This document shows positions 24,609 to 44,999 of a stretch of 64,000 bases of DNA, one piece after another (the first letter of the stretch is position 1; each line of letters begins with the position of its first letter). The position numbers and the translations under genes are program-made. The stretch comes from a virus: the IMG/VR virus record IMGVR_UViG_3300045960_000093, positions 1-64,000 of that record, one strand, 5' to 3'. The notes under the pieces are model-generated. The model saw nothing but the letters and a program-made list of their open reading frames with translations, was not told the DNA's origin and did not search any database.

Positions 24609-24618
24609 GATGACCCCT

Positions 24619-25374
24619 TCAGAACTTGAGCTGCCAGTAGATCTGCATGGTGTATTCCGCGATCAGCACCAGGCCCTCAAAGGACTTGTATGCCACGACT
24701 GGGACCAAAGATGAACGCTCGGAGAACTGCCACGTAACCCCCGTCTCCGGAGAGCCCCACAGCGCACTGGAGATCTCCAAAGAGGTTGGGCTGAGCACCC
24801 GGATGACGCGGTAGTTACCCGGATGGGCGCCGGTGGTGGCCCGAAACGGCTGCTCCTCGTGGATGGGTGTGAGGCCAGACAGCCCGGTCACCGTGGTGAC
24901 GCTTCCTACGCTGGCGGCAATCGAAGCTCCTGTTCCGCCCATCAACGGGCTCTGACCGACCGTGAGCCCGGCCTCCGAGATGATCTTCGGTATCGACGGC
25001 GTGAACAACGAAACGGTGAACGACGTGTAGGCCATCACCGACGACACCGTCGGGAACGACATCGCGATGATGGGCTTCCAGTATGCGCCCGCCGCGATAC
25101 CCGGCATCGCCAGCGGCGTCACGAGCCGCAGGACGTTCTTGTTCTCTAGCTGAGTGCCACTTCCGATGCCCATGTAGCGCAGCCGCCAGTCTGTGTGGGC
25201 AGCTTCCGCGGGTAGAGGATCGACGTCTGGGTCCGCGATGGTCTTCCAGCTCATCAGATAGGTGAGCCACTTCTCTCCGTAGGTGGTGAAGACGTTGTGC
25301 CCTTCACGCAGCGTACCGGGAACGATCTTCCCTCGTTCGCGGCAGAGCGCTCGGAAGTTGACGCCCTCCCTCAT
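24619..25374 (-). CDS. Baseplate/fibre-linked structural protein with inserted beta module
   Basis: 251 residues. Same fold family as 24015-24608 ('RERGKIVPGTLREGHNVFTT', 'YMGIGSGTQLEN', 'VVAYKSFEGLVLIAEYTMQI'). Between 'IISEAGL' and 'VVAYKSFEGL' it carries a segment of ~70 residues ('TVTGLSGLTP', 'HPGNYRVIRVLSPTSLEI', 'VTWQFSER') that is absent from its paralogue. The segment closely matches modules inside the 1288-residue protein at 25750-29616. The start overlaps the upstream stop (ATGA). Confidence 0.7.
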   Translation of the reverse strand: MREGVNFRALCRERGKIVPGTLREGHNVFTTYGEKWLTYLMSWKTIADPDVDPLPAEAAHTDWRLRYMGIGSGTQLENKNVLRLVTPLAMPGIAAGAYWKPIIAMSFPTVSSVMAYTSFTVSLFTPSIPKIISEAGLTVGQSPLMGGTGASIAASVGSVTTVTGLSGLTPIHEEQPFRATTGAHPGNYRVIRVLSPTSLEISSALWGSPETGVTWQFSERSSLVPVVAYKSFEGLVLIAEYTMQIYWQLKF

Positions 25375-25748
25375 GCCATCCTCCGCGACAGGACGAAGTT
25401 GTAGACCTCGGGGCCTACCGTCAGCGTCTCATAGACCGTGATGACGGTGTCCGTCACGGACCTCACGGTCAGCGTCATGCCGTTGTTCGGGCCGCTGCCG
25501 CCGTCATCTAGGCCCGAGATGATGTCCCCTTGCCGAATGCCGAGCTTGTTCGGGGCCAGCGTAGCCGGGCCCCAGAACTCGTACGTGGTTCCCGTGTAGG
25601 CTGGATTCCGAATGAGCGTGTGGGTCCCGTTGGCCACCAAGCCGTTTCCGTTGAGGCCGGTGCAGACGAGCTCGATGTCGAAGCGCTCTGTAGGCGACAG
25701 CTCGGAGAAGCGCTCGAAGAAGGATCGGTGGATGGGGTCTATCGCCAT
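25371..25748 (-). CDS. Small tail structural protein with divergent beta module
   Basis: 125 residues. The N-terminus ('MAIDPIHRSFFERFSELSPT') is followed by a beta-rich part ('GDIISGLDDGGSGPNNGMTL', 'VRSVTDTVITVYETLTV') that resembles a shortened form of the recurrent beta module of this region. It sits between the 1288-residue protein and the adaptor pair, with 1-4 base junctions on both sides. Function unknown; a baseplate part is likely. Confidence 0.6.
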   Translation of the reverse strand: MAIDPIHRSFFERFSELSPTERFDIELVCTGLNGNGLVANGTHTLIRNPAYTGTTYEFWGPATLAPNKLGIRQGDIISGLDDGGSGPNNGMTLTVRSVTDTVITVYETLTVGPEVYNFVLSRRMA

Positions 25749-25749
25749 G

Positions 25750-28700
25750 TTACGGCCCCACCTGCAGGTACAGCGTCGCCTGCCCGTCCCCGGTGTCGGA
25801 AGTTGCCGAAGGCCGATCGATCACAACGTGCCCAGCGTCGACGTACTGCGTGATCATAAACGTCCCATCATTCGACGGGTTCTGCGAGTTGCTGACCGAA
25901 ACGAAGGTACCAACCATCCCGGGAGTGAAGACGCCTTGAATGCTCCCCAACCCGATGTCGAGGACCTCGAGCTGGACGTCCAAGCCGGCGACGGTGCGAG
26001 CTCCGTAGACCAGCCCGTGCTGTAGCGACGGCCGAACGATGCGAAAGGTTTGACCCGACGCTACCGAGGTGAGGGCCGCATCGCCATCGGCGCGGCGCAG
26101 TTGCCCGCCGGTGTCCGTCAAGTACGGCGGCCGCGGCCGATACCGGACGTTGACGTTGGGGCCAAAGCTGTCGGCCCCGGTCCCGTACGGGCTGTAGATC
26201 GCCACCGAGGTGGGGCTCAAGTAGCTGACGATCTTGTACGTCCCCGGGTGGTCGGAGTTGGTGATCTCCAGATACCAGCCGACGTCGTTGGCCGTCATGC
26301 CGCTCAGACCCGTGATGGGCATCGTACCGGTCAACCAGGTGAGGCTCGACGGCCACACGCGCTCCACCACATCCAGCACGTACTCCCCAAGGTTCGGCCC
26401 ACTCTCGATCGTCAGATGGTCCCCGACCTGTACGTCATTCGACAGCAGGGCCGCCGAGGCGCTGCTCGCGAGACCCGTGGCGTCGGTCTCCAGGTCGGTG
26501 CCTCGCAACAGAGTTCCTGACTGACGACGAAGGACCGAAGCCGTCAAGAGCTGAGTGCCGCTGTAGGAGAACAGGCCGCTATCGAGTAGCGGGTAGTTGA
26601 GCGAAGCGAGCTCCGACAGAGGGGCCGCAGAGCGCAGCACCGCGGTGTTGGGGTTCACGACGGTCAGGATCTCGTACAGCCCAGGGTTCAACATGCCGGC
26701 GCCAGGTTGCCCGGCGTGGATGTACAGCAAGTCCCCCTCGACCTCTGGCAGGCCTCCAGCCGCGGCCTGACGCCCTCGTGCACCACCCCACCCCGTCGCG
26801 GAGGTGGCCACTACCCATGGAGCATTTTCGGCGGTCACGACGTCCCGCAGTGTCTTGAGGATTCTGGTCTGGAACGGGCGCGACCCCAGGTTCCACAGGA
26901 CGGCGCCTTGGTGGTTGTCATCGGTCGCGCGGTTCGTAGCCTCGAGCCCTGTGACGTTGTCGTAGAGCTTGATCCTGATGGCGCCGCCGACCGTGTCCGC
27001 AACCTCGATGTCGTCCGCGACCGAGTGGACCAGAGTGGCGATGACCTTCGTGTAGGTCGGCTTGATGGACCGGATGAAGTCCAAAGCAAACTGGACGTCC
27101 GAGGAATCGAACACCGAGCTGTCGATCAGGATCTTGAACACGAAGTACTTGAGGATCTCCAACCCGAACAGCGAGCGCTCCCACCACATCGGGGTCTTGA
27201 CGTAGTCCTGGACGTCAACGCCCTTGCAGATCGCCGCGTAGGCCTCGATGGTGTCCCCGGCGTTGTAGGGGTTGCCGGTCGCCGGGTTGGTCTCGAGGCC
27301 CACGGACATCGGGTAGAAGTAGACTCGTCGGTTGCCGGTCGGTTTCCAGTTCAGGTCCAGGTCTTCGATGAGCAGCCGGCCCAGCGCTTTCCCTTGGCTG
27401 TCCGTGGTGAAGTTCGCCTGGTGCTCGAGGATCAGGCCCTTCTCGTCCGTGAACGGGAGGCCCAGCAAGATCTGCATGCCGAGCCGAAGGTTGTTGACCG
27501 TGGGCCCGTTCGTGTAGGCGAACACCAACCCTTTGACGGCGCTCAGGTAGGGCGCCCGAGTCTTCTTGGCCGTCAGGTCGTTCCGGTTCAGGCGGACCAG
27601 GCGACCGAAGTTCTCTTCGATCCGGTCAGAGTTGTCGAGCAGCGCGAGCTCCGACCAGAACTCCTCGGGCGACGGGGCCTTGGGAGAGAACAGCTTGTTG
27701 ACGAACGTCAGGGTCCCGTTCTCGATCGTGTAGTCCAGGTTCTCAAGCAGAATGGTCGGAGGGTCGGCCGGCGACTCCTGCAAAGCCGGTAGGCTGACCA
27801 GCGTGGGGTCGATGGCGACCGCCTTGTTGTGCAGCACGGTCTTCGCCCGCATCGAGATCTTGTACTCACTGAAGCGCCGCTGCACGAGGTTGATGCCCGG
27901 AGGGATGTAGGCGATCAGAGTCTCGGCCATCGCGGCGATGTCGCGGTCCGACGACTGGGCAGGCACCATCCTCAGATCGACGACGAGCTGCCGGAACAGC
28001 GCCCGCTCAACATCGGCCCCTTGGCGGCCCCGCTCCACCCAGGAGATCGCCGGGTTGCCGCTGTCGGCCCCGACGGCCAGGGGATTGCGGATCGTGACGG
28101 TGTTCTCGTCGACGTACGAAACGACCTTGTACCGGCCGGGGTTGTCGCCGTTCAGGATCTCCAGCCAGCTGCCAACGCTGGTGGGCCGCATGCCCGACAG
28201 ACCGCTGACCGTTACGACGCCGCCGGATGCCACCACGCTGGCCGCCGAGCCGGAGTTGGTCGGCTCCGAGAGGTCGTCGGTGGTGAACTCGAACGACAGA
28301 CGATCTCCAGCGGCCCCAACGACGCGAGCTCGGAGCTCCGCGCTGATCTTCGCGTCATGGCGCGTCACCTCGAGGACCAGAACATCACCCGCCGACACGC
28401 CGCGGGCCTGGAACTGGGCACCTGGGACATGCAGAAGATGCGACAGCCGCCAGCTGGCCCCGACGATGCCGTCTGACAGCGTCGAGTTTCGTAGGAACAC
28501 CACCGAGTACGGGCGGCCGATAGCGTACGACTGCGCGGTGCCGGTCTTGAAGCTGGGAACCGGTCCACCGGGGGGATCGGCCAGGTAGGCGACCGCGACT
28601 TGGGTGGTCGACACCGTCTTGACGAGGTACGTGCCGGCGTTCTCCCCGCTGCGAATCACCAGACGGTCACCGGCTTGAACGCCTGCCGCTATGAAGTCGG

Positions 28701-29616
28701 TCGGGAGCTCGATGGTGCCCGTCGAGGTCAGGATGTTGCTTCCGAGCGTCGTGGCGCCGTCGGTGTCGGAGGACAGCAGCAAGCCCTTGTTGGCAACCCG
28801 CTCGATGATGTGCCCTTGGCCGTTGACGCACAGCAGCCGGCCCTTGGCGCCGAAGTTGCCGTTGAGGTTCGTGAAGTCCGTCCGGTCGCCGTCGCCTGGG
28901 TTCCCGAGGGGGACGTAGAACACCGTGGTGTTGCCGGTACCGGGGGTCTGGCCGATGTTGCCAGACCGGCCGTTGAGGCCGGCGTCGGTCTTGCCGACGA
29001 TGATGCGCTGGTCTGTGTAGGGCGTCAGGTCGGTGCGCATCGAGACGCGCTGCCACCGGCGCTGCTTGGTCGTCTGGATGGTGGCCAGCGACTTGTTGAG
29101 GTCGTGGTCCCACAGCGTGATGACCTCGGCGCCGAGCTCCTGGATGATGCCGGACCAGATGGTGGTGAGCTTCTCTCGGTCCTCGACGAGGTTCCAGAAG
29201 TCCGAGATGTAGTTCCACAGGAACTGGGCGTCCGGGACGATGTTCTCCCCGACGGGGACCTGGCTGTACTGGATGGTGACGCTGGCCGAGACGGGGTCAC
29301 TGGTGAGCTCGCCGTCATCGACGGTGAGCGCCACCACGTAGGTTCCGACCTTGTCGGGGATGAACGAGACGGCGGCCGCGCGGGGCCGGATCTCTTTGAA
29401 ACCGGAGGTCTCTACTTCGCTACCGAGCGGGGTCTGAGCGAACTTCCAGTGGTAGTTGAGCGGCGTCCGCTCGGGGTCGTAGCTCTTGCGTCCATCGAGC
29501 TGGATGATGGAGCCCAGCAGCGCACTGACCCTCGTAAGGGCCAGCTGCGCCACAGGCTTCTGGTTCTGTGGCCCGACCGTGAAGGTCGTGAACTTTTGAG
29601 AACTTTCGCCGCTCAT
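25750..29616 (-). CDS. Large baseplate/tail protein with PKD-like N-terminus and several beta modules (1288 aa)
   Basis: Residues ~15-115 resemble a PKD/Ig-like domain ('LGSIIQLDGRKSYDPE', 'YHWKFAQTPLGS', 'GTYVVALTVDDGELTSDPVS'), followed by 'FLWNYISDFWNLVEDREKLT'. At least four beta modules follow: 'AGDRLVIRSGENAGTYLVK' (nt ~28600-28690), 'VSGLSGMRP' to 'PGRYKVVSYVDENTVTI' (~28030-28220), 'ITGLSGMTANDVGWYLEI' to 'TYKIVSYLSPTSVAIY' (~26140-26330) and 'FTPGMVGTFVSVSNSQNPS' (~25800-25930). The middle ('EEFWSELALLDNSDRIEENF' and onward) is unrecognised. The size, position and Ig-like/beta composition point to an external baseplate or side-fibre hub. Confidence 0.75.
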   Translation of the reverse strand: MSGESSQKFTTFTVGPQNQKPVAQLALTRVSALLGSIIQLDGRKSYDPERTPLNYHWKFAQTPLGSEVETSGFKEIRPRAAAVSFIPDKVGTYVVALTVDDGELTSDPVSASVTIQYSQVPVGENIVPDAQFLWNYISDFWNLVEDREKLTTIWSGIIQELGAEVITLWDHDLNKSLATIQTTKQRRWQRVSMRTDLTPYTDQRIIVGKTDAGLNGRSGNIGQTPGTGNTTVFYVPLGNPGDGDRTDFTNLNGNFGAKGRLLCVNGQGHIIERVANKGLLLSSDTDGATTLGSNILTSTGTIELPTDFIAAGVQAGDRLVIRSGENAGTYLVKTVSTTQVAVAYLADPPGGPVPSFKTGTAQSYAIGRPYSVVFLRNSTLSDGIVGASWRLSHLLHVPGAQFQARGVSAGDVLVLEVTRHDAKISAELRARVVGAAGDRLSFEFTTDDLSEPTNSGSAASVVASGGVVTVSGLSGMRPTSVGSWLEILNGDNPGRYKVVSYVDENTVTIRNPLAVGADSGNPAISWVERGRQGADVERALFRQLVVDLRMVPAQSSDRDIAAMAETLIAYIPPGINLVQRRFSEYKISMRAKTVLHNKAVAIDPTLVSLPALQESPADPPTILLENLDYTIENGTLTFVNKLFSPKAPSPEEFWSELALLDNSDRIEENFGRLVRLNRNDLTAKKTRAPYLSAVKGLVFAYTNGPTVNNLRLGMQILLGLPFTDEKGLILEHQANFTTDSQGKALGRLLIEDLDLNWKPTGNRRVYFYPMSVGLETNPATGNPYNAGDTIEAYAAICKGVDVQDYVKTPMWWERSLFGLEILKYFVFKILIDSSVFDSSDVQFALDFIRSIKPTYTKVIATLVHSVADDIEVADTVGGAIRIKLYDNVTGLEATNRATDDNHQGAVLWNLGSRPFQTRILKTLRDVVTAENAPWVVATSATGWGGARGRQAAAGGLPEVEGDLLYIHAGQPGAGMLNPGLYEILTVVNPNTAVLRSAAPLSELASLNYPLLDSGLFSYSGTQLLTASVLRRQSGTLLRGTDLETDATGLASSASAALLSNDVQVGDHLTIESGPNLGEYVLDVVERVWPSSLTWLTGTMPITGLSGMTANDVGWYLEITNSDHPGTYKIVSYLSPTSVAIYSPYGTGADSFGPNVNVRYRPRPPYLTDTGGQLRRADGDAALTSVASGQTFRIVRPSLQHGLVYGARTVAGLDVQLEVLDIGLGSIQGVFTPGMVGTFVSVSNSQNPSNDGTFMITQYVDAGHVVIDRPSATSDTGDGQATLYLQVGP

Positions 29617-29625
29617 TCCAGCTCA

Positions 29626-30357: not shown

Positions 30358-30366
30358 GTCGATCTC

Positions 30367-31128: not shown

Positions 31129-31841
31129 CAGTCGATCCCCATGTTGATCCGGACCTGGTCGAAGTACACGTAGCAGTTGGTGAAGTCCGGAGAGCTTCCG
31201 CCGACACCGGCGTGCGCCACCCCGAAGCCCCAATAGCCAGGCTGGTTGGTCACCCCGCCGTGTCCGCTGTCGGTCGCGACCGTTGCCCACGACGTCCACC
31301 CGGCGGAACCAGGAGACGACAGCGCGGTGCCGTTGTTGTACCGCTGCTCGAGCAGCACGTTGCTCGAGACGTTCTTCGCACGAATCTCGAACTGGCACAG
31401 GCCGGGACTGTCACCGTTGAGCTTCGGGATCGTCCAGGTACTGCCTACCTGGGCAAAGACCCCGGACAGCACTCGGTACAGACGAACGTTGAACGGACCA
31501 ACGCTTCCCGTCGTAGCGGCCTGGAACAGGCCGGCGAAGTAGCAGTTGAGGTGCGTCGCGAGCGTGGGAGTGGCGCTCTGCTGTCGAATCCATACTCCGT
31601 AGAGGTCGTAGAGGTTCCCCGTGGTGCCGGTGCGAAACGCTCCAGAGATCGACCCATCGCGCAACGGGAAGTTGCCAGCGAACGAGGGACCGTTGTAGAG
31701 CCAACCGACGATCTGCCCGTTGACCTTACTGCCGAGCCGCATGAAGGCGCTGTAGCCCGAGCCGCTGGTCAGCGTCCCGCCACCGCGCTCACGAACCCCC
31801 ATCGGCGGGGCTTCTCGAAAGTTCCAGTTCGCGATCGACAT
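31128..31841 (-). CDS. LamG/concanavalin-like adhesin protein, third of three
   Basis: 237 residues from ATG 31841. Core 'IVGWLYNGPSFAGNFPLRDG', then 'HLNCYFAGLFQAATTGSVGP', 'VRLYRVLSGVFAQVGSTW' and the closing 'GYWGFGVAHAGVGGSSPDF' with 'VYFDQVRI', again a lectin-like jelly-roll ending. It follows the 1199-residue adhesin gene with a one-base overlap, so the four genes are translationally linked. Probable receptor-binding or glycan-binding appendage. Confidence 0.6.
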   Translation of the reverse strand: MSIANWNFREAPPMGVRERGGGTLTSGSGYSAFMRLGSKVNGQIVGWLYNGPSFAGNFPLRDGSISGAFRTGTTGNLYDLYGVWIRQQSATPTLATHLNCYFAGLFQAATTGSVGPFNVRLYRVLSGVFAQVGSTWTIPKLNGDSPGLCQFEIRAKNVSSNVLLEQRYNNGTALSSPGSAGWTSWATVATDSGHGGVTNQPGYWGFGVAHAGVGGSSPDFTNCYVYFDQVRINMGID

Positions 31842-34800
31842 CAGGCTAACCCCGGACCCTTCAAGTAGCACATCATGGCGCCCCACGTCGTGCCTGCGGT
31901 GATCGAAGCCTGTGACTGCTGCGACGCTCCGGTGTGCCCAATCACTCCGATGCGCGCTGCGCCTTGGATGTAGTAGCCCGGGTAGTTGTTGAAGGCGTTG
32001 AAGGAGCCGCCCGGAGCTCCAAAGACGTCGGTGTTCTTGTACGAGCGGAACAGCGCGATGGCGAGGCCGTCGCTTGCCGTGGGCGCCACGGCACCCGTAT
32101 CGGCCGTTGTTGTAGTCCCAGTCACCAGCGTGCCGGTGACGTCGAGGAGCTCGGCGTTGCCGGTCAAGATGGTCTGCATCACGATGACGTTCTTGTTGGA
32201 CGAAGCGAACGACGCCGTCGGGGTGCCACTCGGTGTGACCACAGTCTTGTTCGTTACCGTCCATACCTCGAAGCGGAACTTGCTGTCGGCCGACAGTACG
32301 TTCACCCGCTGTACCGGGGTCCCAAAGCCGGCGTTGGAGATCCCGGTGCATGCCGACATATCCTGCGCGCCACTGTAGTTGGCGTGCAGGATGAAGAAGT
32401 AGGTCGTCCAGCCGAAGATGCAGCCGCCTCCGTAGAAGCCGAACGTTGTGTTGCCGGGGTACAGGTCACCGTACCGACCGCCCCAGCCGTCGGAGCCCGG
32501 CTGTGGGCCGTTGGTGCCGAAGTTGGGCCACCCATAGGCGGCGCCATTTGCCAGAGTGGCAAAAGGCTCGGGAGAAGAAGCCACCGGGTAGTTGTTGAAG
32601 CGGGTGTCGTTCCACGTCAAGCCGTAACCGTCGGTCGGCTGAATGGCGTTGTTGATCCACGACTGGACGTTGAAGTTCGCGTACTCCTCGAACTCCTCGA
32701 CGCTCGGGTTGTCGGAGAACGCCGCCCAGGGCGTCCACTCGACCTCGAAGGCTTCGTAGTAGACCGGGGTTGCCGTGTTGAACCGAGAGGCTGTTCCACT
32801 GTAGCTGGAGTGGATGGCGCCCACGCCAGACCAGTTCTGCTCGAAGTCGTCCCTTGGATTCGTGGTGTCGAAGATCGAAGCACTGGTGGCCGTCGTGCTG
32901 GTGTGCAGCGGTCCCGCATCGGCCCACTCGTCTTCGAAATCCTCCCATGACGTGTTGGCTGTATCGAAGCGACCCGCGGTACCCACGAACGTCGTGTGCA
33001 TAGGGCCAGCATCCGGCCAGCCGCCATAGGGCACACTGGCGTCGAAGTCCTCTTGGTCGGCCACCGGGTCGTTGAAGTGTGAGGCCTCGACCGCCAGGCT
33101 GTCGGTGTGCAGCGGGCCGGCGTCGGGCCAGCCATGCTCGCAGCTGTCCTCGTAGTAGATGGAGCCCGTGAAGATAGCGGGCAAGCCGACGAAGTTGTTG
33201 TTCTCGTAGCTGCGTGCGTTCGCGATGTAGTTGACCGAGTAGTTGACCCGCGCCAGCGCTTCCGCTTCGGTCAACACCGGCCGCAGACAGACCTCCAACC
33301 CGCGAGAAGTGGAGATCAGAACGTGTGAGACCTGACTGACTGTCTTGGCGTAGTCCCCGAAGTGCCCGATCACCAAGCGCGGGTATCCGGAACCGTCTGA
33401 GGGCGCGTAGGGGAACGACAGCTGATCGAACGACAGCGTGGGCCGATCGGACTCGTTCAAGTACAGGTTCAGCTGACCGCGGAAGGTCCGCTCCAGGCGG
33501 TAGAGGGTGAACCTCGTCCAGTCCACGATGGCGAACGTAGCGGCCACCGAGGACACGCCGGCGCGGATGAGCTCCAGGTTCTCCACGGGGTCCGCAACGG
33601 TCTGTAGGAACACGATCTTGCCGTAGGGCGGCCCCATGTCGGCGAAGATCAGCGCGGTCTGGTAGGTGTCGTCGATCAACGCGGCGCGGAAGCCTGTCAG
33701 GTGTCGAGTGGGGGACACGACGTCGCTGCTGGCATAGGACTCGACGCGAGCTCGGAACTCCAACGCGACCCCGTTGCTGGGTCGCATGCCGGCCGTGTAG
33801 TCGCGTCGGATCTGAACTTTGCCCGCCTCCGTCTCATCGGCGTCGGTCAACGTTCCGTACTCGTCACCAGCCGTGATGGTGCCGTTGCCGTCCTTGGCCC
33901 AGCCTGCCGGCAGCGGCGTCACGATCTGGTCGGTCGTGAGGCCACGAACGGCCGTGGAGTACCGAAGCTTGTAGACGCAGAGGCGCGCTGTGGCGACACC
34001 GACGTTGGCGTTGTGGAGGAAGCCGAGCCCCGGCCCCGGCATGCTCGAAGCCGGCAAGGCCGAATAGGCCATGCCGAGAACGTACGTTGGTATGACGCTC
34101 ACGCCGTCATCGATCAGGCAGTACAAGGAGACGGCGTTGTGGTCTGGGTCGAATACGATTCGATAGGTGGTGGGGTTCACAAAGGACTGTTGAGCGGCCG
34201 CGTAGGAGATCAACTGTTCGGGGTTCGGGGTGTCCTTCAAGAACCCCACGTACTGCGTGCCCTGGACGTCTTGGAGGAACGCCAGTCGTGCACTGCGGAC
34301 ACCGTCGTCGACGTAGAACTCGACCCCTGTGGTCTCGACCCCTACGGCTTGCGAGAAAGACTCCACGGAAGCCTTGAAGTCGAACACAGTCTGGGACGAC
34401 ATCGCAGGCTCGGAGCGGTAGTACCCAACGCTCTTGGTGGCATCTCGCCGCTCCACGGCCAGATGGTCACTCTCCAGGAAGGCATCACCCCCGATACTCC
34501 CGAACGAGCTCGGCAGCGAGTTCCACGGCGTTTCATGGTGCTCGGGTAGCGCGGTCGGCCGGTAGAGCATCGCCTCGTTGGTGTGAAAGAACCCTTCGAA
34601 GGCGCCACACACGATGCCCTTACGAATCGGCGCCGTGGTGAGGTTGTAGAGCGCCGCGAACTTCCAGCGGCTGATGCTGGTGGTCTCGGACGCGATGTGA
34701 CCGAAGAACGCCTGCGGGACTTCTTCACGCTGCTCTTCGGTCGGGAGCTCGGAGAAGTCGCTGATCTTCCCGTCGATCAGCAGCGTGTCACCGGCGTCGG

Positions 34801-35440
34801 TACCGCTGGAAGCGTACAGACGGACGACGTCCATCGCGGGGTACCACAAGAGCTTGAACGTCACCCACACGTCGTCCCAGTCGATCAAGCAGGCGTAGCT
34901 GGCGCTCGGCGGCGTCGTCGCTAGACGCGCGGCGCTGTGCATCTCCACACGATGGGTGCCCTGCTCGTACAGCTTGACCGCAACGCCCTTCTTGCCGGCC
35001 AGCAGTCCGAACGCGACCCCCGAGAAGTCGTTGTAGTAGGTCGCCTCTACGGCGTTGAGGCGGACGGTGAACTCCGCCATCAGTGGACCGTCGACCTCCG
35101 CTGGCGCCTCCAGGCCCCCGAAGAAGTACGTGGCCTCTTGGATCTGAGGGAGCGGCGTCACGGCCTTCGTGAGGATCAACTCGCCTTGCCCACCGATGGC
35201 GCGCTCCGCCGGCTGGTAGGGCGTCGTCCCGCCGTAGCTCTCCAGGCGGAAAGTGAAGTCGGTCCTGGCCTCGGGGAACACCTGTCCGGTGTAGTAGATC
35301 GGGCCCTCTCCGTAGAAGAGGTCGACGCTGTCTTCCAAGACCTCGGTGCCGGCGATCCGCAGGCCGAACCGAACGCTATCCCGTACGCCGGCGATGGCAC
35401 CCTGTGAGGGTCTCCGGTTGATGATCTGGGGAGTTGACAT
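31841..35440 (-). CDS. Large tail adhesin with lectin-like domains and W-x-x-AGPLHT repeats (1199 aa)
   Basis: Three or four lectin-like beta-sandwich segments can be seen in the first 780 residues ('DDVWVTFKLLWYPAMDVVRL', 'TTYRIVFDPDHNAVSLYCL', 'DWTRFTLYRLERTFRGQLNL'), each a strand pair describing a ligand-binding jelly roll. At residues ~770-905 a tandem repeat follows with 'GWPDAGPLHT', 'GWPDAGPMHT', 'EWADAGPLHT', 'NWSGVGAIHS' and a last 'EWTPW'. The C-terminal 250 residues are beta-rich with aromatic and Gly clusters ('YSGAQDMSACTGISNAGFG', 'NKNVIVMQTILTGNAELLD') like a lectin tip. Start ATG 35440, with GAGGGG nine bases upstream. It is read leftward, away from the inserted rightward gene. 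Confidence 0.75.
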   Translation of the reverse strand: MSTPQIINRRPSQGAIAGVRDSVRFGLRIAGTEVLEDSVDLFYGEGPIYYTGQVFPEARTDFTFRLESYGGTTPYQPAERAIGGQGELILTKAVTPLPQIQEATYFFGGLEAPAEVDGPLMAEFTVRLNAVEATYYNDFSGVAFGLLAGKKGVAVKLYEQGTHRVEMHSAARLATTPPSASYACLIDWDDVWVTFKLLWYPAMDVVRLYASSGTDAGDTLLIDGKISDFSELPTEEQREEVPQAFFGHIASETTSISRWKFAALYNLTTAPIRKGIVCGAFEGFFHTNEAMLYRPTALPEHHETPWNSLPSSFGSIGGDAFLESDHLAVERRDATKSVGYYRSEPAMSSQTVFDFKASVESFSQAVGVETTGVEFYVDDGVRSARLAFLQDVQGTQYVGFLKDTPNPEQLISYAAAQQSFVNPTTYRIVFDPDHNAVSLYCLIDDGVSVIPTYVLGMAYSALPASSMPGPGLGFLHNANVGVATARLCVYKLRYSTAVRGLTTDQIVTPLPAGWAKDGNGTITAGDEYGTLTDADETEAGKVQIRRDYTAGMRPSNGVALEFRARVESYASSDVVSPTRHLTGFRAALIDDTYQTALIFADMGPPYGKIVFLQTVADPVENLELIRAGVSSVAATFAIVDWTRFTLYRLERTFRGQLNLYLNESDRPTLSFDQLSFPYAPSDGSGYPRLVIGHFGDYAKTVSQVSHVLISTSRGLEVCLRPVLTEAEALARVNYSVNYIANARSYENNNFVGLPAIFTGSIYYEDSCEHGWPDAGPLHTDSLAVEASHFNDPVADQEDFDASVPYGGWPDAGPMHTTFVGTAGRFDTANTSWEDFEDEWADAGPLHTSTTATSASIFDTTNPRDDFEQNWSGVGAIHSSYSGTASRFNTATPVYYEAFEVEWTPWAAFSDNPSVEEFEEYANFNVQSWINNAIQPTDGYGLTWNDTRFNNYPVASSPEPFATLANGAAYGWPNFGTNGPQPGSDGWGGRYGDLYPGNTTFGFYGGGCIFGWTTYFFILHANYSGAQDMSACTGISNAGFGTPVQRVNVLSADSKFRFEVWTVTNKTVVTPSGTPTASFASSNKNVIVMQTILTGNAELLDVTGTLVTGTTTTADTGAVAPTASDGLAIALFRSYKNTDVFGAPGGSFNAFNNYPGYYIQGAARIGVIGHTGASQQSQASITAGTTWGAMMCYLKGPGLA
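32720..33160 (-). repeat. Tandem W-x-D-A-G-P-L-H-T protein repeats
   Basis: The Trp codons of successive units lie at 33128-33130, 33017-33019, 32924-32926, 32831-32833 and 32735-32737, i.e. 37, 31, 31 and 32 residues apart. Each unit has an acidic F/E segment before the Trp ('DFEDEW', 'DFEQNW', 'AFEVEW') and a Thr/Ser-rich part ending in F-[DN]-T. The DNA copies have diverged, so the repeat is old at the nucleotide level but conserved in protein. Confidence 0.75.
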
Positions 35441-35462: not shown

Positions 35463-35468
35463 TCGAGA

Positions 35469-35813
35469 ATGTTCGAACCTATGGACCCGGACATCGCCCG
35501 AGCCCTCATCGCTGAGGAGCCCGACACCCTGACCGAAGCTGCTCGAAAGGAGGCCGAGCTCTACGCCAACATCGCGTGTCCCATGTGTTACCAGAACGGG
35601 GCCGAAAAGAGAATTCCCCCTCCTCGCTTTGAGATCTCGGAGGATGGGCTGCCTCAGTTGGCGAGCTCGTCGTTCTCTCCGAATCGGCCGCTGCCCGTGG
35701 GCTATGCCCACTGCCTGCACTGCGGTACCGATTTCGATCCCCATAGCGGCCTCATCCGTCAAACCGACGTGTCGCTCATTGCTGGTCCAGAGTCAGACCC
35801 TCGTTCAACTTAG
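35469..35813 (+). CDS. Zinc-ribbon protein on the opposite strand, possibly leaderless
   Basis: 114 residues, the only rightward gene in the 51-kb leftward block. It has an acidic helical N-terminus ('DIARALIAEEPDTLTEAARK') and two Cys pairs, 'CPMC' (near residue 37) and 'CLHC' (near residue 83), giving a probable zinc ribbon. No ribosome binding site precedes ATG 35469 or the alternative ATG 35481. Its last 38 bases overlap the 3' end of the baseplate J gene antisense. The opposite strand across 35442-35762 also has an open frame but with implausible Arg-rich composition. Function unknown; a small regulatory or anti-host protein would fit its separate control. Confidence 0.6.
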   Translation: MFEPMDPDIARALIAEEPDTLTEAARKEAELYANIACPMCYQNGAEKRIPPPRFEISEDGLPQLASSSFSPNRPLPVGYAHCLHCGTDFDPHSGLIRQTDVSLIAGPESDPRST

Positions 35814-38800
35814 CGAAGAAGGCCGAGATGCGACCGGTGCCGTGGTACGGCACCGTGTTGAGGCCACCAAGCTGGTCCTCCGTCCGATCGACGACCAGCC
35901 GACGGTCCAGGTCATGCGTCACCGCGGACAGCTCGATGGGGTGCCGAATCGAGTCCGCCCCGCGGCGAGTCAAGAAGGCCTCGAGATCCGACACCTCGAG
36001 CTGCGCCTCCGCGCCCAGCGTGTTGATGTAGTCCTCGAGGACCGGCCCGATGACGTCCGGCGACGGCCCGCCACCGTAGATGAAGTTCACGTACACGTAC
36101 GACGGCAGGAAGTGACGTGCCAACGGATTGGCGTTGATCGGGCGGTCGGTGTCGGACCTCAGCAGGTCATGGACCAGCCGAGTCACCACCGAGGTCTCGT
36201 ACATCACCTTCAGGTTGCGGCCGCTCACCTCGCTGCGGTTCTCCGGGCTGTCGCTGTTGCCCACCGGAAGGAACCGACGGTCGAACAGCAGCGACACCTG
36301 CTCGAACGGAGAGAACGTCAGGTTGCTGTTGTCGACCGCGTAGGTGTAGCCGTCGATCGACACCTTCCCGTCCTCAACGAGCGCCAGACGGGCGTTGCGT
36401 TCGATGTTGTACTCGTCGCCAGAGCCGTCGGACTCCACCTGAACGTCGGCGTAGTAGAACGACCCATCGAAGTTGTTCTGCATCTCGGTCGAGCTGAGCC
36501 GGTAGACCTTGGGCCGCAGCAACCGGTAGAGCGCCCGGTCGCTGGGGTAGAGCTTGCCGTTCGAGCTCTCGAACCCGCCGACGGTCAACATCGTCCGTGA
36601 CCCGTGGATACCTCCCCGAATGCGGAACGGGTTGCCGGTGACCAGCACCTGGAAGCGGTTGTTGGGGTTGTTGGCGATGTCGACGTAGTCGGTGCCGGTG
36701 CCCACGATCGTATAGACCCCACGATTCGGACCGCTCAGCACCTCCAGACGATCTCCGACGTTGGCCCCCGTCATGCTGGTGGAGCCGTCGGTGCGCACCA
36801 TACGGATGTTGAACCCACCCTGCGCCTCGGTGGTTCCGCGCATCACGCCGGTCATGGACTCCGACATCATGGTCGCTACCTGGGTGACGGCCACTTGCGT
36901 CGGCACCGAGGTGTAGATGTGGAACGGCTGCTCGATGTTGTCCTTGGACTCCGTGCGGAGCCAGGTGAACCGGCCGATGTCGAAGCAGTCGAAGTCGGCC
37001 CCGCTGGTCGCCTCGATGTTGGTGAACGAGACCTTGAGGGTCGCCCTGCCGGGCGACGGGTACGCCTGGATCTCGTAAGCCCCGTCGATGTCATCGCGGG
37101 TCGACTCGAAGATCGTGATGTAGTGCCCGACCGTCGTGCCAAGCCCGCCGGCGTCGGTGGTGTCGTAGAGATCCGTGGTCCCCGTACCGGCATAGAACCG
37201 TTGCAGCGCCCAGGGCTGCCGCGGCGTGACGTCCATGCCTTTGATGGTCTGGGTCGTAGAGGTCAGCACCCGGTCGAGCCGTAGTGCCTTCGCACTCTCG
37301 ACGCTCTCGATGATGTATTCACCAGCATCCGGCCCGCTGTCGATCACCAGTGTCTGCCCGGCCAGCGGGTAGATGCGGTCCATCGCCTGGAAGTCGATGG
37401 TCGAGATCGAGGGGATCTCGATGCGGTTGCTTCCCGTCACGGACCGTAGCCCGGCGGGCTTGCCGAAGATACCGAGCTCCTCGAAGGTAGCACTGACCGA
37501 GGTGGCGGTGGCGCCCGTCGGAATCACCAACCCATCGGGGTTGTCGATGGTGGCCGTGGTGCCGGCAAGACCGATCACGCGGAAGAACTGGCCGTCGGAG
37601 TCCAGACGAATCCATCGGTTGACGTACAGGTTGGTCGCGTCGTCGAACACGACCGTCGTGGTACCGTTCCAGGTCGCCGTTCCATCTCCGTCGGCCGGCC
37701 TGACGCCTCGGAAGGGGATCTGCTCGTTGACCTCCAAGATGTCACCCTCGTTGAGCTCCAGGCCGAACACATCGGGGTGGTTCTCGTCGGTGAGCTCCAC
37801 GATGGACTTGAAAGCCGCGGCTGTCGGCTCATAGACGCTCGTAACACGGATGTCTCGGAGCTTCGTCTCCGTCGCTCCTGGAGACGGCAGCAGGCGGAAC
37901 CCATCGACCTGAGAGAACCGGAAGCTGCGGGGGGTTCCGACGTCCTCGTACTTCATGCGGGCGCCCGTCAGCCCTGTTGGAATCTCGACCGAGGTGGGGT
38001 CGAGGAAGTACAGCCGAGCTACGCCCGACGACGGCAGGCCGAGCGTGTAGTGCACTCCGGTGCTCAAGTCGATGAACGGGGTGCCGCCGTCGGCCGAAAC
38101 CGCGACTTGGATGACGTGCGCGTTCCCGAGCACGTTGATGGCCTCCACCGTGTAGGTGCCTTGGCTGGTCGTGTTGATGACGTTCAGGCGCCAACCGGGG
38201 ACGACGCCTTCCGCGGGGAAGTCGACGTCGTCATCCTGGAGGTAGTAGCGCCCCAGGGCTCCATCTTGGATGACACCTCGGAAGCTTTCGACCTGGATAC
38301 CTTCGGCCCGATTGGAGAACACGCCAACGGCTCGAATGTCGGCGGTGGTTCCGTAGGGGATCTGGATGCCGGTCGGCTGGGAGTTGGAGTCCAGCAGCTC
38401 GACGGACTTGACGCGAACGAGCGGCCGCTCGATGCCCGTGAAGGCACGGTAGACCGAGAACTTCTGCGAGAACCCCGTGTTGAGGGGGGCGGTGTCGAGC
38501 AACAGCGCCGTTCCGGTCACCGACGTGACGCCGTACTTCCCGGAGTTGTCACCTTCCAGGATCTCGAGGGTGTCACCGGACGACACACCGGCCAGCAGGA
38601 AGTTGGTCTCGCCGGCGGACGTTACGGTCTTGTCGCCTGCCGTGGTGTTGAGGTCTTGCCCGAGGAAGATGGTGCCGAGGGGGATCTTCACGACCTTCGG
38701 GGACACCAGGTCGACGTTCAGCTCGTCGTCGAGCCGATAGCGCAGGCCGCTGCCATCTCCGGTGCCGGAGGGGGTCGCGTTCTTGGTCAGGTTCCGGTCG

Positions 38801-40770
38801 AGCAGCAGGGTGTCGTTGTCCGCCAGGGAGTTGAGGATTCTCCGAATCGAGTAGATGCCGGCGTCCTCACCGGTCTCGATGACCACCGAGTCACCGACCT
38901 TGGTGCCCAGCGCGGCGAAGTCCTTTCCGGTTTCGAGGCCCCACGAGTTCGTACGAGAGGCGTCGCGGTCTCGTACCTGCGGCTTGGAGGTCGTGTTCTC
39001 GATGACCCGGATGTCGGTGTCGAAGGACAGGTTCGTGCCCAACGAGTAGATGCTCCCGGTCTCTTGGTTGACGAGCTCGAGCTTGACGCGAACACACCGC
39101 TCTGGAGAGCCGCCGTGAGCGGTGGTGTACTCCTGGTCCATCACGGCCAGGATCTTGAGGGTCGCTTGTCGGCCCGACTCCAGGATCTGCACGTACCGGC
39201 CCACGTCGTCTGCCGTGAACTTCCACGGCACCAGATCGCTGTCCGCGCCCGGGTCCCCGCCACCACCGGCGCTCGGCTCGTACTGCTTGATCAGCACCTC
39301 GTTGTTGGTTGCGAGGGCGACCCCGAAGCGATCGAGTCCGGTCCGCATCAGAACATCGGTCAGCTTCTCGGTGATAAAGACGAACTTGTCGTCCTCGCCA
39401 CCGAACGACTCCAGGTCCACCCCGAAGTGAAGCGGCAGCCCGTCCCGGATGCCTTCCAGAGTGATCTCCTTCTGGACCGGCTGCCCGGCGCGGACGTACA
39501 CGTCCAGCGCACCGCCGATGTGCACCTCGTTGTCGTTGATCTCGATCGTGCCAGCCTGGGTCTTGGGCCCCAAGATGCCGCCCGGGATGTCGGAGATCGT
39601 GATGGGGCCGGACGGCTTGCTGATCGTCAGCGCCGGCGAAGGCATGGGGAACGTGACATCTGGCGTCACGATCAAGTAGTCGGCCCCGACGAACTGGACC
39701 GTGTGCTCGAAGATTTGCCCTGTGGTCAGGTTGACCTGGGTCGCCAGGTCTCCCTGGGCCACACCCACCTCGGCGAACGTGTCTTTGAAGCCACTCCCGT
39801 TCAGCACGATGATGCCGTTGGTCGGGTTCTGAAGCTCGATTCGATTCCCTGCCGACGGTGACTCTACGACGGCGAGCGCGTAGGCGTTCGGTCCGGTGCC
39901 GCCCTTGATGATGTCGCGTTCCATCTCGACATCGCCAAAGCCGATCGTCTGGATGAGCCGGATGCTCTCGAACACGTCGGTCAGCCGAGCGTTGATGCCG
40001 CGGAACGTGACCAACGACTTCTCGGTCAGGCTGTTTTCCACGCGCTCGATGAAGTCCGTCGTGGTCTCCTTGTCGTCACCCTCCTCGAAGCTGGCCTTGT
40101 TGGTGACCTTGATGACCTCCGGGGCGTTCTCGATCCCGGACAGGACGTTGGCGTCGATGTTGTACTCGGTGCCCTGCTGTTCCGCGCGGACGATGATGTC
40201 TTGGTAGTAGAGGTTGTCCTCGATGTTGAACAGCATGTTGTCGGCCGAGATCGCTTGGTTCTCAACCGGCATGTAGCGATGGCCACTGGGGTCGAAGCAG
40301 AGGTTGTTGGGGGAGATGATGCTGTTTCGGGGAGCCGAGAAGTACAGCCTGGCGAGTCCGACGGCATAGCCGCCCAGCCGGCGGCGAACGAAGAAGTTGG
40401 CGCCGAGGTTGTCGGCCTCTCGTTCGTTCAGGACCTCGGGGTTGGCGAGCGATTGGTTGTTGGAGATCTGGCGGATCTGGCGGCGGAACGGCTCCAGCAA
40501 GATCGTCATGATCTTGACCGCGTAGTCGTCCATCGGCTCCCCATCCTGCATGACCAGCTCGGGGAACTCGGTCTTCAACCGACGAATGATGAAGTCCCGG
40601 AGTGGGGTCTCGTAGGGGTCGGGCCCAACGCGATCGATCAGCGGCTGGATGACGGTGCTGTAGAACTGCGAGCCCGAGCTCGTGTCAATCGAGGGGTCCC
40701 ACGACTTGACGCGCTCCTGGAGGAACAGGGTGAGATCGTCGATATCGTTTACGCCCGTGTAGCTGGACAT
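35776..40770 (-). CDS. Baseplate J-like protein with embedded beta modules (1664 aa)
   Basis: The N-terminal 300 residues follow the baseplate J/gp47 pattern: an 'NDIDDLTLFLQERV' start, a helical region, 'READNLGANFFVRRRLGGYA', 'VIVRAEQQGTEYNIDANVLSGIEN'-like beta part (nt ~40150-40230) and 'DFIERVENSLTEKSLVTFRGINA'-like helix. The C-terminal 130 residues ('NFIYGGGPSPDVIGPVLEDY' onward) look like the J C-terminal domain. Between lie six or more beta modules with the 'GDxLxIxxGxxxGxY' motif, for example 'SSGDTLEILEGDNSGKYGV' (nt ~38510-38600), 'KVGDSVVIETGEDAGIYSI', 'LAGQTLVIDSGPDAGEYII' and 'NVGDRLEVLSGPNRGVYTI'. At 1664 residues it is several times the usual J length, from these insertions. 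It forms the wedge of a contractile-tail baseplate. Confidence 0.85.
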   Translation of the reverse strand: MSSYTGVNDIDDLTLFLQERVKSWDPSIDTSSGSQFYSTVIQPLIDRVGPDPYETPLRDFIIRRLKTEFPELVMQDGEPMDDYAVKIMTILLEPFRRQIRQISNNQSLANPEVLNEREADNLGANFFVRRRLGGYAVGLARLYFSAPRNSIISPNNLCFDPSGHRYMPVENQAISADNMLFNIEDNLYYQDIIVRAEQQGTEYNIDANVLSGIENAPEVIKVTNKASFEEGDDKETTTDFIERVENSLTEKSLVTFRGINARLTDVFESIRLIQTIGFGDVEMERDIIKGGTGPNAYALAVVESPSAGNRIELQNPTNGIIVLNGSGFKDTFAEVGVAQGDLATQVNLTTGQIFEHTVQFVGADYLIVTPDVTFPMPSPALTISKPSGPITISDIPGGILGPKTQAGTIEINDNEVHIGGALDVYVRAGQPVQKEITLEGIRDGLPLHFGVDLESFGGEDDKFVFITEKLTDVLMRTGLDRFGVALATNNEVLIKQYEPSAGGGGDPGADSDLVPWKFTADDVGRYVQILESGRQATLKILAVMDQEYTTAHGGSPERCVRVKLELVNQETGSIYSLGTNLSFDTDIRVIENTTSKPQVRDRDASRTNSWGLETGKDFAALGTKVGDSVVIETGEDAGIYSIRRILNSLADNDTLLLDRNLTKNATPSGTGDGSGLRYRLDDELNVDLVSPKVVKIPLGTIFLGQDLNTTAGDKTVTSAGETNFLLAGVSSGDTLEILEGDNSGKYGVTSVTGTALLLDTAPLNTGFSQKFSVYRAFTGIERPLVRVKSVELLDSNSQPTGIQIPYGTTADIRAVGVFSNRAEGIQVESFRGVIQDGALGRYYLQDDDVDFPAEGVVPGWRLNVINTTSQGTYTVEAINVLGNAHVIQVAVSADGGTPFIDLSTGVHYTLGLPSSGVARLYFLDPTSVEIPTGLTGARMKYEDVGTPRSFRFSQVDGFRLLPSPGATETKLRDIRVTSVYEPTAAAFKSIVELTDENHPDVFGLELNEGDILEVNEQIPFRGVRPADGDGTATWNGTTTVVFDDATNLYVNRWIRLDSDGQFFRVIGLAGTTATIDNPDGLVIPTGATATSVSATFEELGIFGKPAGLRSVTGSNRIEIPSISTIDFQAMDRIYPLAGQTLVIDSGPDAGEYIIESVESAKALRLDRVLTSTTQTIKGMDVTPRQPWALQRFYAGTGTTDLYDTTDAGGLGTTVGHYITIFESTRDDIDGAYEIQAYPSPGRATLKVSFTNIEATSGADFDCFDIGRFTWLRTESKDNIEQPFHIYTSVPTQVAVTQVATMMSESMTGVMRGTTEAQGGFNIRMVRTDGSTSMTGANVGDRLEVLSGPNRGVYTIVGTGTDYVDIANNPNNRFQVLVTGNPFRIRGGIHGSRTMLTVGGFESSNGKLYPSDRALYRLLRPKVYRLSSTEMQNNFDGSFYYADVQVESDGSGDEYNIERNARLALVEDGKVSIDGYTYAVDNSNLTFSPFEQVSLLFDRRFLPVGNSDSPENRSEVSGRNLKVMYETSVVTRLVHDLLRSDTDRPINANPLARHFLPSYVYVNFIYGGGPSPDVIGPVLEDYINTLGAEAQLEVSDLEAFLTRRGADSIRHPIELSAVTHDLDRRLVVDRTEDQLGGLNTVPYHGTGRISAFFAKLNEGLTLDQQ

Positions 40771-40778
40771 TGGTTACC

Positions 40779-41435: not shown

Positions 41436-41447
41436 AGTCCTCTCCTG

Positions 41448-41942: not shown

Positions 41943-44900
41943 CTATTCCTCCACCAGCTGCGGGTCTTCCACGTCGGAGAAGTCCGTCTCAGGATTGGTC
42001 CCCGTCTGAATGCTGACCGCCAGGTTGTGCGACCGCGCCACGCCCTCTTGGGTCTGTGACACCCTCGGCAGATCCCTGACCACCGCCCTCGAGGTGGCCA
42101 GCAGGTTCCCTGCGTAGGACCCCGTCTCATCGGTCGTTCCGAAGAACGCTTCGATCTTCGCCGAAGTCAGCAGGTCCGCAGCCCGCTCGTACTTGCGGTC
42201 CAAGAAGGCCTCCAGCAGGTCGTCGATCGCCTTGACGGAGTCGACGGAGTACGACGTCAGGATGCTGGTCAGGTTGTCGGCCGCCGTCGGCACGGTCGCC
42301 GAGTACTCTGCGGCCCGCAGAGGCGTCGCGGTCAAGATGGACAGCAGGTCGGTCATCATGCGCTTGGTTTGGTTGCGCGACGACTCGAAGTTCTGACCCG
42401 GCAGCATGGCGGCCACCAGCGCATAGGCCAGCGCGTCCAAGCTCACATCGTACTGGTTCTTCTTGAGCAGGCTGCTGGAGGTCGTGAAGGTCACGAGCCG
42501 GTCATGCAGCGCGTTGTAGCTGCTCGAGGCCGTCCCAACGATCTCGAATCCAGCATCGACCAGGTTCGCCGGGACGCCAGAGGCCAACGTCAACAGGGTT
42601 CCGTTGGAGGCCAGCACCGTGTAGAGGTCGGCCCACCCAAGAATGCGTAGAACGTCTCCCTCGGCGACCTTGGTGAACGACAGTAGCTCCCCTTTGCGGT
42701 TGACGGCTTCGAAGCCACACAAGGTCCCCCGGTAGGTGTCGGCGACCAGACCCATCTCGGCCGGGCTCGACACGACCTGAACCGAAGAGCGGCTGTTGAT
42801 CAGCAACGAATAGATGAGGACCGTCTCTCGGAACACCCGATACCGCAGGCCTTGCTCGCTGGCAGAGAACGTCCCATCCATCTCGAGCTGGAGCTGGTCG
42901 TTGTTCACGTAGGAGATGCGGTAGCGGCCGGAGGCTGTCCCATCCAGGATCTCTACCTGGTCACCAGCCGCGACGCCCAGCGTGCTGTACAGGAGGCCCG
43001 ACTCGTCTTGAACGACGTTGTCGTCGTACATGGATCGAAGCGTACCCTCGTACAGTACCTGCTCCTGCGTGGACGCCATGCCGTTGTACGGAAGCCCGTA
43101 CTCGGTGATCAGCTCGGCCAGCACCGAGGCGGACAGGAAGTTGTTCAGGGCGTATCGCGGGTCCAGACGCTCTCCGAGCACGAACCCGAGCTCTCCATGC
43201 CCGGACAGAGCAACTGTCGTCGGCGCCCCGGCGGAAGGGAGACTGGGCTGTAGGAAGGAGTCCACAATCTGAAGATGCCGACGCCACCGGCTCCGCAGCT
43301 CCAACGAGAGCTTGGTCGGGTCGCCAGGGCTCGACACCGGGCGGACGTACCGCCGCAGGGACCACCACGGCATGTTGGTGTCTTCGATGGTGTTGATCGA
43401 CGCGATCACACTCGACACGCTGGACGAGGCGGATGGCAGCGTTGCGGTCTTCTGCGCGGGGCACACCTGAACCTTGGTGTTGGCCGTCGGAGAGACGCCC
43501 AGCGCCGGCGACCACCACAGCCGCACGTTGGGGTCCCCGTTGTAGGTCGCGAAGATCGTCACCGTGTTGCCGGGGAACGTCATGCCGGCGTCGTAGTCGT
43601 CCAGCATCACGGTGTTCCCCGACACGTAGGACAAGATCTCCCGGCGGTCCCCTGACGCATTCTTCACGTAGCCGCCCACCATGCCGGGGCTGAACACGCT
43701 CGTCGTGGTGATGAGCTGGCCCGATGACGGCGTGTAGGACAACATCACGCCGGTGCCTTTCTGCGTGATGTCGGTGATGACTCGAGGGTACAGGTTGCTA
43801 CCCGACAAGGCGCCACCGGTGTCTCGGAACAGCAGCGGGGCCCCAAGGTGCCGGAACCCCAGCCACATCCCTGAAGCTCCTGGAGTGAACAGGCAGGAAG
43901 AAGTTGAGTACACGGTGTTCACCGTGCCGTCGTAGAAGTTGGGGTCGAGCAGGACGTGTAGGTGGTTGTTCAGGGTATCGAGAGAGAACGGCTCTTGATT
44001 GCGCCCCACCAGGCAAGGGCCGCGCACCTGGTCGACCGGCACCGAGACTGAGCTCTCCCCGTTGAACGCCAGCACCAAGGGGGCCGAGACCGGCAGCGTC
44101 CAAGGCCCCGGCGCCGTCGTTACCTGTGCGGCCGACCCCGTGGGGCCCGAAAGGCCGCCCTCATCCAGGACCGTCGTGTCACCGACGGCTCGACCAAGAT
44201 GTGACAGGCCTACCGGGACAGGGTCCACTGGGCTGCGGTACCGAACGTCCGACGGGTCCGAGAAGGTGCCGATGATGTTGACCGCCGACTTGTTGGCGAG
44301 CGCCTTGAGTAGCGTGCGGCGGCTGGCCTCCAGGTTCTGTGCGCCGGTCGCCGTCTCGGTGAACGCCATCATGTCGTCGAGGTTCTTGCGCACCCCGGCG
44401 AGCGCGGCCGTCGAAGCCTTGGAGGCGATGTCCAGCGCGTTGAACGAGGTCAGCAGGTCACGTAGATCGGTGACGGCTGGCAGCAGGCGGTCGTGCATCG
44501 CCTGAAGATCCTTCAAGTCGGTCTTCAGGATGGTGCGGGCCTCCTCCTTCGGGTGCACGAAGTCCTGCGTGCGCTGTGACACCGTGTTGCCGTAGAACTG
44601 CGCCGCGTAGGATGCCATCTGCCGGTCGAAGCGATCGGTCTCTGGCCGGCCCGTCAGGCTCTGTGCGGCATCGAGAGCCAGAACGGTCGTCTTGGCGTTG
44701 GACAGCGTCGTCGTATCGGTGACGGGCTGACCGCGCTGGCTCAGGTCGTCCAGTGCAACCAGCATGTCCTCGACCAACGCAACCTCCTGGGTCACGATCG
44801 ACCGGAGCTTGTTGGCCGCCAGCTGCGCGACGTAGAAGATGCCGTCGGGGGCGAACAGGAACGTCAGCGACGCCATGTCGAGGAGCTGTTCGTACTCCTC

Positions 44901-44999
44901 ACGGGTGTTGAGGTTGCCACCGTTCCTAGACGGAGTGAGCCGGGCTCGAAAGATCAAGGAGAGCTCGTTGAGGAGCTCGGCATCCGTGTAGATCGCCAT
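41943..44999 (-). CDS. Large baseplate-associated structural protein (1018 aa)
   Basis: The N-terminal 230 residues are alpha-helical ('TDAELLNELSLIFRARLTPS', 'LAALAGVRKNL'-type heptads), the middle is beta-rich and the C-terminal 150 residues are helical again ('VKAIDDLLEAFLDRKYERAA'). The middle has two segments like the recurrent modules: 'FSPGMVGGYVKNASGDRREI' with 'LSYVSGNTVMLDD' (nt ~43610-43710), and 'VAAGDQVEILDGTASGRYRI' (nt ~42900-42985). It is transcribed directly before the gp25- and J-like genes, which places it in the baseplate. No enzyme motif is seen. Confidence 0.7.
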   Translation of the reverse strand: MAIYTDAELLNELSLIFRARLTPSRNGGNLNTREEYEQLLDMASLTFLFAPDGIFYVAQLAANKLRSIVTQEVALVEDMLVALDDLSQRGQPVTDTTTLSNAKTTVLALDAAQSLTGRPETDRFDRQMASYAAQFYGNTVSQRTQDFVHPKEEARTILKTDLKDLQAMHDRLLPAVTDLRDLLTSFNALDIASKASTAALAGVRKNLDDMMAFTETATGAQNLEASRRTLLKALANKSAVNIIGTFSDPSDVRYRSPVDPVPVGLSHLGRAVGDTTVLDEGGLSGPTGSAAQVTTAPGPWTLPVSAPLVLAFNGESSVSVPVDQVRGPCLVGRNQEPFSLDTLNNHLHVLLDPNFYDGTVNTVYSTSSCLFTPGASGMWLGFRHLGAPLLFRDTGGALSGSNLYPRVITDITQKGTGVMLSYTPSSGQLITTTSVFSPGMVGGYVKNASGDRREILSYVSGNTVMLDDYDAGMTFPGNTVTIFATYNGDPNVRLWWSPALGVSPTANTKVQVCPAQKTATLPSASSSVSSVIASINTIEDTNMPWWSLRRYVRPVSSPGDPTKLSLELRSRWRRHLQIVDSFLQPSLPSAGAPTTVALSGHGELGFVLGERLDPRYALNNFLSASVLAELITEYGLPYNGMASTQEQVLYEGTLRSMYDDNVVQDESGLLYSTLGVAAGDQVEILDGTASGRYRISYVNNDQLQLEMDGTFSASEQGLRYRVFRETVLIYSLLINSRSSVQVVSSPAEMGLVADTYRGTLCGFEAVNRKGELLSFTKVAEGDVLRILGWADLYTVLASNGTLLTLASGVPANLVDAGFEIVGTASSSYNALHDRLVTFTTSSSLLKKNQYDVSLDALAYALVAAMLPGQNFESSRNQTKRMMTDLLSILTATPLRAAEYSATVPTAADNLTSILTSYSVDSVKAIDDLLEAFLDRKYERAADLLTSAKIEAFFGTTDETGSYAGNLLATSRAVVRDLPRVSQTQEGVARSHNLAVSIQTGTNPETDFSDVEDPQLVEE

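Follow-up and report, generated by a model that had tools for sequence, protein, structure and literature searches.

The tail genes of this virus carry many copies of a short beta-rich module, which probably represents a beta-barrel domain family that has spread through these genes, is gained and lost as whole units and would have an accessory role at the virion surface. The sequence analysed (hereafter, the window) corresponds to bases 1–64000 of a 68,210-base virus record, and its tail genes are located on the minus strand. The baseplate J-like protein (BpJ; 1664 aa, 35776–40770, minus strand) matched the PHROG baseplate wedge profile phrog_6 (E 6e-15, residues 49–251), and by this match its scaffold is classified as a Baseplate J / T4 gp6-like wedge protein. 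In addition, p218 matched phrog_2669 (baseplate protein), the C-terminal end of the 1543-aa fibre is a Peptidase_S74 chaperone, and the N-terminal start of the 1288-residue protein (p1288) gave a weak PKD match. The 251-residue protein (p251) and p197, which matched phrog_5417 (annotated as of unknown function), are adjoining paralogues (24015–25374); the pair is also found in the relatives G001, G004, G005 and G007, and a single copy in G006. The close relatives (G001–G007) are uncultivated contigs of 106–202 kb. Identity of their main proteins with those of the window was 67–77% for G001 and about 45–55% for G004–G007, G002 and G003 being more distant (30–36%). The G001 orthologue of the 1199-aa protein (p1199) has 1986 aa, with an N-terminal extension of ~1240 aa without counterpart in the window (locus L001, 4041–10001).

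Six module copies were found in BpJ, six in p1288, and one in each of p251, the 1018-aa protein (p1018) and two fibres (Table 1). The initial annotation had described a strict pattern, which was located at residues 465–528 (nt 28033–28224) and 1096–1158 (nt 26143–26331) of p1288 and at residues 157–217 (nt 24724–24906) of p251. The looser forms, reported there at least six times in BpJ, correspond to six copies by profile. For p1018, where one or two copies had been proposed, one is secure and the others are weak. The single copy announced in the 1321-aa fibre has moderate support; the window fibre scores low and the orthologues carry the case, and the copy of the 1543-aa fibre had been overlooked. 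The 125-aa protein, regarded as a probable carrier, is unproven: its profile scores were 4.4–7.1 bits against 6.1 for the decoy, although hhalign gave 80% with p1288 module A. This protein is similar to the C-terminal portion of a G004 protein of 374 aa and, in G006 and G007, is apparently fused onto the orthologue of p1288 (loci L015 16404–17528, L080 5239–10035 and L082 5278–9543).

Table 1. Module copies and related features of the window.
Feature	Position	Strand	Remarks
p1288 module A, type I	28519..28728	-	residues ~297-366; profile searches
p1288 module B, GLSGM type	28021..28254	-	residues ~455-532; entire unit missing in G004, G006
p1288 module C, divergent	26617..26784	-	residues ~945-1000
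p1288 module D, first part	26347..26487	-	residues ~1044-1090; profile searches
p1288 module E, GLSGM type	26131..26337	-	residues ~1094-1162; nested between strands 3 and 4 of module D; missing in G004, G006
p1288 module D, second part, past nested insert	26023..26127	-	residues ~1164-1198; inferred from module D being continuous in G004, G006
p1288 module F, divergent	25765..25953	-	residues ~1222-1284
p251 module, GLSGM type	24712..24927	-	residues ~150-221; insert in p197-like scaffold; missing in G004, G005, G007 orthologues
BpJ module 1	38725..38949	-	residues ~608-682; profile searches
BpJ module 2	38437..38637	-	residues ~712-778; profile searches and local model pLDDT ~70-80
BpJ module 3	38044..38238	-	residues ~845-909; profile searches
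BpJ module 4	37228..37428	-	residues ~1115-1181; profile searches
BpJ module 5, divergent	37006..37188	-	residues ~1195-1255
BpJ module 6	36616..36813	-	residues ~1320-1385; profile searches
BpJ, other ~70-aa unit, not detectably the module	37495..37698	-	residues 1025-1092; missing in G004, G005, G007
p1018 module	42828..43016	-	residues ~662-724; leave-out profiles
1321-aa fibre module	17689..17829	-	residues ~401-447; support moderate
1543-aa fibre module	22614..22775	-	residues ~411-464; support chiefly via orthologues
125-aa protein, possible module	25404..25535	-	unproven
p1199, empty site near residues 522-546	31841..35440	-	GLSGM module in G005, G007

Homology between copies was studied by a design that avoids circularity, in which a profile trained on one protein family was tried on the others, with shuffled and reversed sequences as decoys. 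A profile made from the three strict copies only scarcely reached the looser ones, with a top score of 9.2 bits where decoys attained at most 3.8, and was rejected as a search tool because it was too narrow for them. With decoys peaking near 9 bits, the BpJ-only profile recovered p1288 at 33.5 bits (iE 3e-11) and p1018 at 25.5 bits, and the p1288-only profile recovered BpJ, p1018 and p251 at 31.7, 23.5 and 16.0 bits, respectively. In wider leave-outs (decoy maxima 3–8.5), the starting seed of which included p251 and p1018 rows and the model of which was rebuilt on training rows alone before scoring, p1018 reached 35.7 bits, p251 22.1 and the insert of the p1199 family 43.5. The best fibre orthologue scored 20.7 bits in these leave-outs and the window fibres just 11.3 and 6.1, so that membership of the latter rests on the orthologues and on profile-profile comparison, which gave 91% between fibre and p1288 module A. 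The hhalign probabilities were 82–98% for most cross-protein type I pairs, and the four non-module controls stayed close to 0 save for one value of 27%. The claim of a module repeated across several tail proteins was thus confirmed, the cross-protein profiles being far above shuffled decoys. The profile search across the genome and related phages that had been suggested as a check also gave cross-protein matches above decoys. Pairwise identity of most type I copies is low (about 15–30%), and scanning with the full 36-row alignment revealed no conserved stretch. At the DNA level, modules B and E of p1288 were the only similar window copies (73% over 84 bases) and, as a consequence, the copies are not recent duplicates. 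Taken as sequence evidence, these data indicate that the repeated words are homologous and belong to one module shared by at least four protein families plus the fibres.

The comparison of relatives revealed empty sites with contiguous flanks at the positions of p1288 modules B and E, of the p251 module and of the p1199 insert. The window, G001, G005 and G007 have module B; G004 and G006 lack it, and at this site the scaffold runs uninterrupted in G004 (...FEFTLQDLSTAATT-VDRALFRDL...) and is likewise continuous in G006. Module E occurs in the window, G001 and G007 and weakly also in G005, and is missing in G004 and G006. As strands 3 and 4 of module D follow each other without a break in these two phages, the alignment reads E as nested inside D. 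The p251 protein consists of a p197-like scaffold with an inserted module, which is lacking in the G004, G005 and G007 orthologues and in the paralogue p197. The reverse holds for p1199: a B-type module occupies one site of the orthologues from G005 and G007, where the window, G001, G004 and G006 have none. Finally, in G006 the B, E and p1199 sites are empty and p251 has no orthologue; this phage possesses a B-type copy within an unrelated 497-aa protein encoded at a locus far away. Compared with the window copy, the B-type unit together with its N-terminal linker shows 51–56% identity in that 497-aa protein and in the p1199 orthologues from G005 and G007. B-type copies have in common the barrel plus about 14 residues of upstream linker, and across different host proteins they conserve a loop (GADSGNPxIxW) and a turn (NGDNPGxY). 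Since an entire unit can be there or missing while the scaffold stays continuous from one relative to another, the module acts as an independent domain, and the initial proposal of one domain recurring in unrelated scaffolds stands in this respect.

At the GLSGM sites, gain is more probable than loss, as module-free scaffolds include the paralogue p197 and more basal phages; the tree polarising gain has a long-branch outgroup and support of 77–82. It could further be speculated, with low probability, that the GLSGM unit and its linker (NSGSxASIVxSGGVVTV) form a lineage-specific mobile cassette of ~80 aa that jumps repeatedly between tail genes, its own family included, by a recombination route sparing frame and scaffold.

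Internal indels of at least 45 aa were surveyed in seven tail protein families from six phages. The module was inside 17 of 24 indels, counted by holder and therefore non-independent, against 6.7 expected by random placement, and none of 2000 trials reached 17. When indels were merged by eye, eight of 11 distinct sites contained the module (P about 0.003 at a mean null rate of 0.28, by our own arithmetic), and the other three had no detectable module. BpJ residues 1025–1092 are a second kind of beta unit with whole-unit presence or absence between relatives; this stretch was rejected as a further module copy, as hhalign gave at most 5%.

The model of p1288 module B, built from 36 rows, predicted a small all-beta barrel of ~70 residues with five main strands (8–12, 25–28, 35–44, 47–51 and 67–70; pLDDT 79, pTM 0.69). 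AF2 prediction of BpJ 600–1400, made with a shallow alignment, was of low confidence (pLDDT 32), with the exception of the region around residues 694–777 (pLDDT about 70–80), in which the last four strands follow the same order as in p1288 module B. The best match of the sequence profile against PDB was the KOW domain of Spt5 (4ytl, E 0.002), which is weak, single and split into two stretches. Foldseek search of PDB with the p1288 B model placed N-terminal barrels of F1/V1 ATPases at the top, together with 4hiz, the phi92 endosialidase, at non-significant values (E 0.03–0.11), the viral BFVD returned many phage tail proteins, also non-significant (E 0.02–0.2), and nothing under E 0.001 was found in either database. 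No Pfam family was above the cut-off for 36 modules (best E 0.0055, isolated chance-like matches), and a NCBIfam search on five host proteins gave no family match for the module. The predicted fold is a small all-beta barrel.

Every match of the genome-wide profile search in G001–G004 was inside the tail gene cluster. A frozen profile gave 142 matches of at least 12 bits and zero decoys in 59 further viral loci, a few of which overlap phages of the training set; all these matches were in homologues of BpJ, p1288, p1018 or p1199 or in unlabelled ORFs of those loci. G006 showed two extra matches near a fibre-type gene, and some distant relatives had matches in other large unlabelled ORFs. In the distant relatives G018 (172187–175039) and G019 (171342–173291), open frames of ~2,050–2,110 aa that lie far from the baseplate J gene hold four modules each. 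Among the three named phages tested, the only match was a single one in gp236 of Salmonella phage Arash (OQ632216.1, 167633–167803; E 3.7e-5), a structural protein encoded close to the gene of the PAAR tip; the genomes of Vibrio phage D181 and Bacillus phage G gave zero module matches. A tblastn search for the module in cultured phages produced no match, p251 as query found no relative in the viral contig collection, and B-type copies in IMG/VR were found only within this phage group. A bacterial source for the GLSGM unit was also considered and none was detected in the bacterial and archaeal genome collection at the sensitivity used.

The modules are dispensable at given sites, and because orthologous scaffolds lack them they would not be core structural elements. 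Values of dN were 0.11–1.05 against dS of about 0.8–2, which is near saturation, and dN was below dS in each copy with computable dS. The modules appear to be under purifying selection and thus do not look like debris. The rate of change was ~2 times that of the scaffold in p1288 modules C–F and in the p1018 and p251 modules, which also fits relaxed constraint. We propose that small independently folding beta-barrel domains of ~60–85 aa would form a family in one phage group and would have spread by duplication and recombination through baseplate and fibre genes, whole units being repeatedly gained or lost in loops of otherwise conserved scaffolds. The inserted barrels would stand out from the surface of baseplate and fibres as accessory decorations, and their most likely partners in weak contacts would be the host envelope or adjoining tail parts. 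Surface decoration is the most likely role, and it is probably weakly adhesive.

Weak binding to the host surface is the leading guess among roles, and bracing and neutral accretion still compete with it. The inserted barrels may tentatively be supposed to bind host-surface glycans and to be swapped because host surfaces change, as in evolved Dit and BACON. The whole-unit differences between close relatives, the loop and turn conserved in B-type copies across host proteins and the adsorption promoted by Dit insertions (PMC10688798) are in favour of this; however, no carbohydrate-binding family of Pfam or NCBIfam was matched, and most copies are in the baseplate J-like protein rather than at fibre tips. 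It is somewhat doubtful that the barrels serve to take up space and broaden a large baseplate, or to hold adjoining proteins together. The length of BpJ varies among relatives between about 570 and 2332 aa, with the modules between conserved N- and C-terminal regions, and a domain inserted in the A-1(L) wedge is the anchor for the hub and the long tail fibre (PMC10966104), but close relatives have the same scaffolds without the unit, and module position and number vary. Neutral accretion, by which any small domain with its ends close together is tolerated in surface loops without selected function, is unlikely: it agrees with a module nested in a module, with the fast change of several copies and with the insertion of other indel units, but not with dN below dS wherever dS was computable, for which folding constraint alone could suffice. 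Convergence of generic beta-rich sequence without homology, to which the low identity of type I copies and the Foldseek results might point, is very improbable given the leave-out tests, the decoys and the non-module beta-rich controls.

The decorating barrel family proposed here was compared with known systems. Tail and baseplate proteins are commonly mosaics of domains (PMC10684548). According to PMC9022992 (citing Fraser 2006), Ig-like domains (Big_1, Big_2, I-set and FN3) are found in phage structural proteins belonging to five functional classes and are small, often dispensable and promiscuous beta domains of fibre, baseplate and other virion proteins. The module resembles them in its presence in several unrelated virion proteins, but it has no Pfam match to these families, belongs to a different sequence family, and is often a loop insertion, mostly in baseplate and fibre-type proteins. 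BACON domains of crAss-like and other gut phages are also small repeated tail-protein domains subject to horizontal transfer and duplication (PMC6949934); the module differs in lacking a BACON profile match and in occurring as scattered single insertions and not just as tandem arrays. Evolved Dit is a tail protein with inserted carbohydrate-binding domains, which some relatives have and others lack (PMC10688798), and the same unit-wise presence or absence in orthologous scaffolds was found for the module. However, the adsorption role of the siphophage Dit was tested, whereas the module is in several proteins around the baseplate-wedge (gp6/J-like) protein and would have the role inferred above. 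The module has in common with KOW/SH3-like barrels the GDxLxIxxGxxxG motif and possibly a small barrel, about 60 residues long, but the Spt5 match is weak and single and the structure search ranks the ATPase barrels (E 0.03), not KOW. The endosialidase beta-barrel (phi92 4hiz and BFVD entries so named) is likewise a small phage tail barrel, with a TM-score of about 0.55 by query length; its E values are non-significant and the module has no Pfam match.

These Ig-like (PMC9022992), BACON (PMC6949934) and carbohydrate-binding (PMC10688798) precedents make promiscuous tail domains a known principle, and not the new architectural principle that the initial annotation had suggested. What is new, as far as the searched libraries and papers show, is the domain family and its site-by-site record: an unlabelled family in large phage baseplates, the explicit filled and empty sites of which among relatives offer a clean natural system for studying the entry of domains into structural proteins and the effect of inserts on adsorption.
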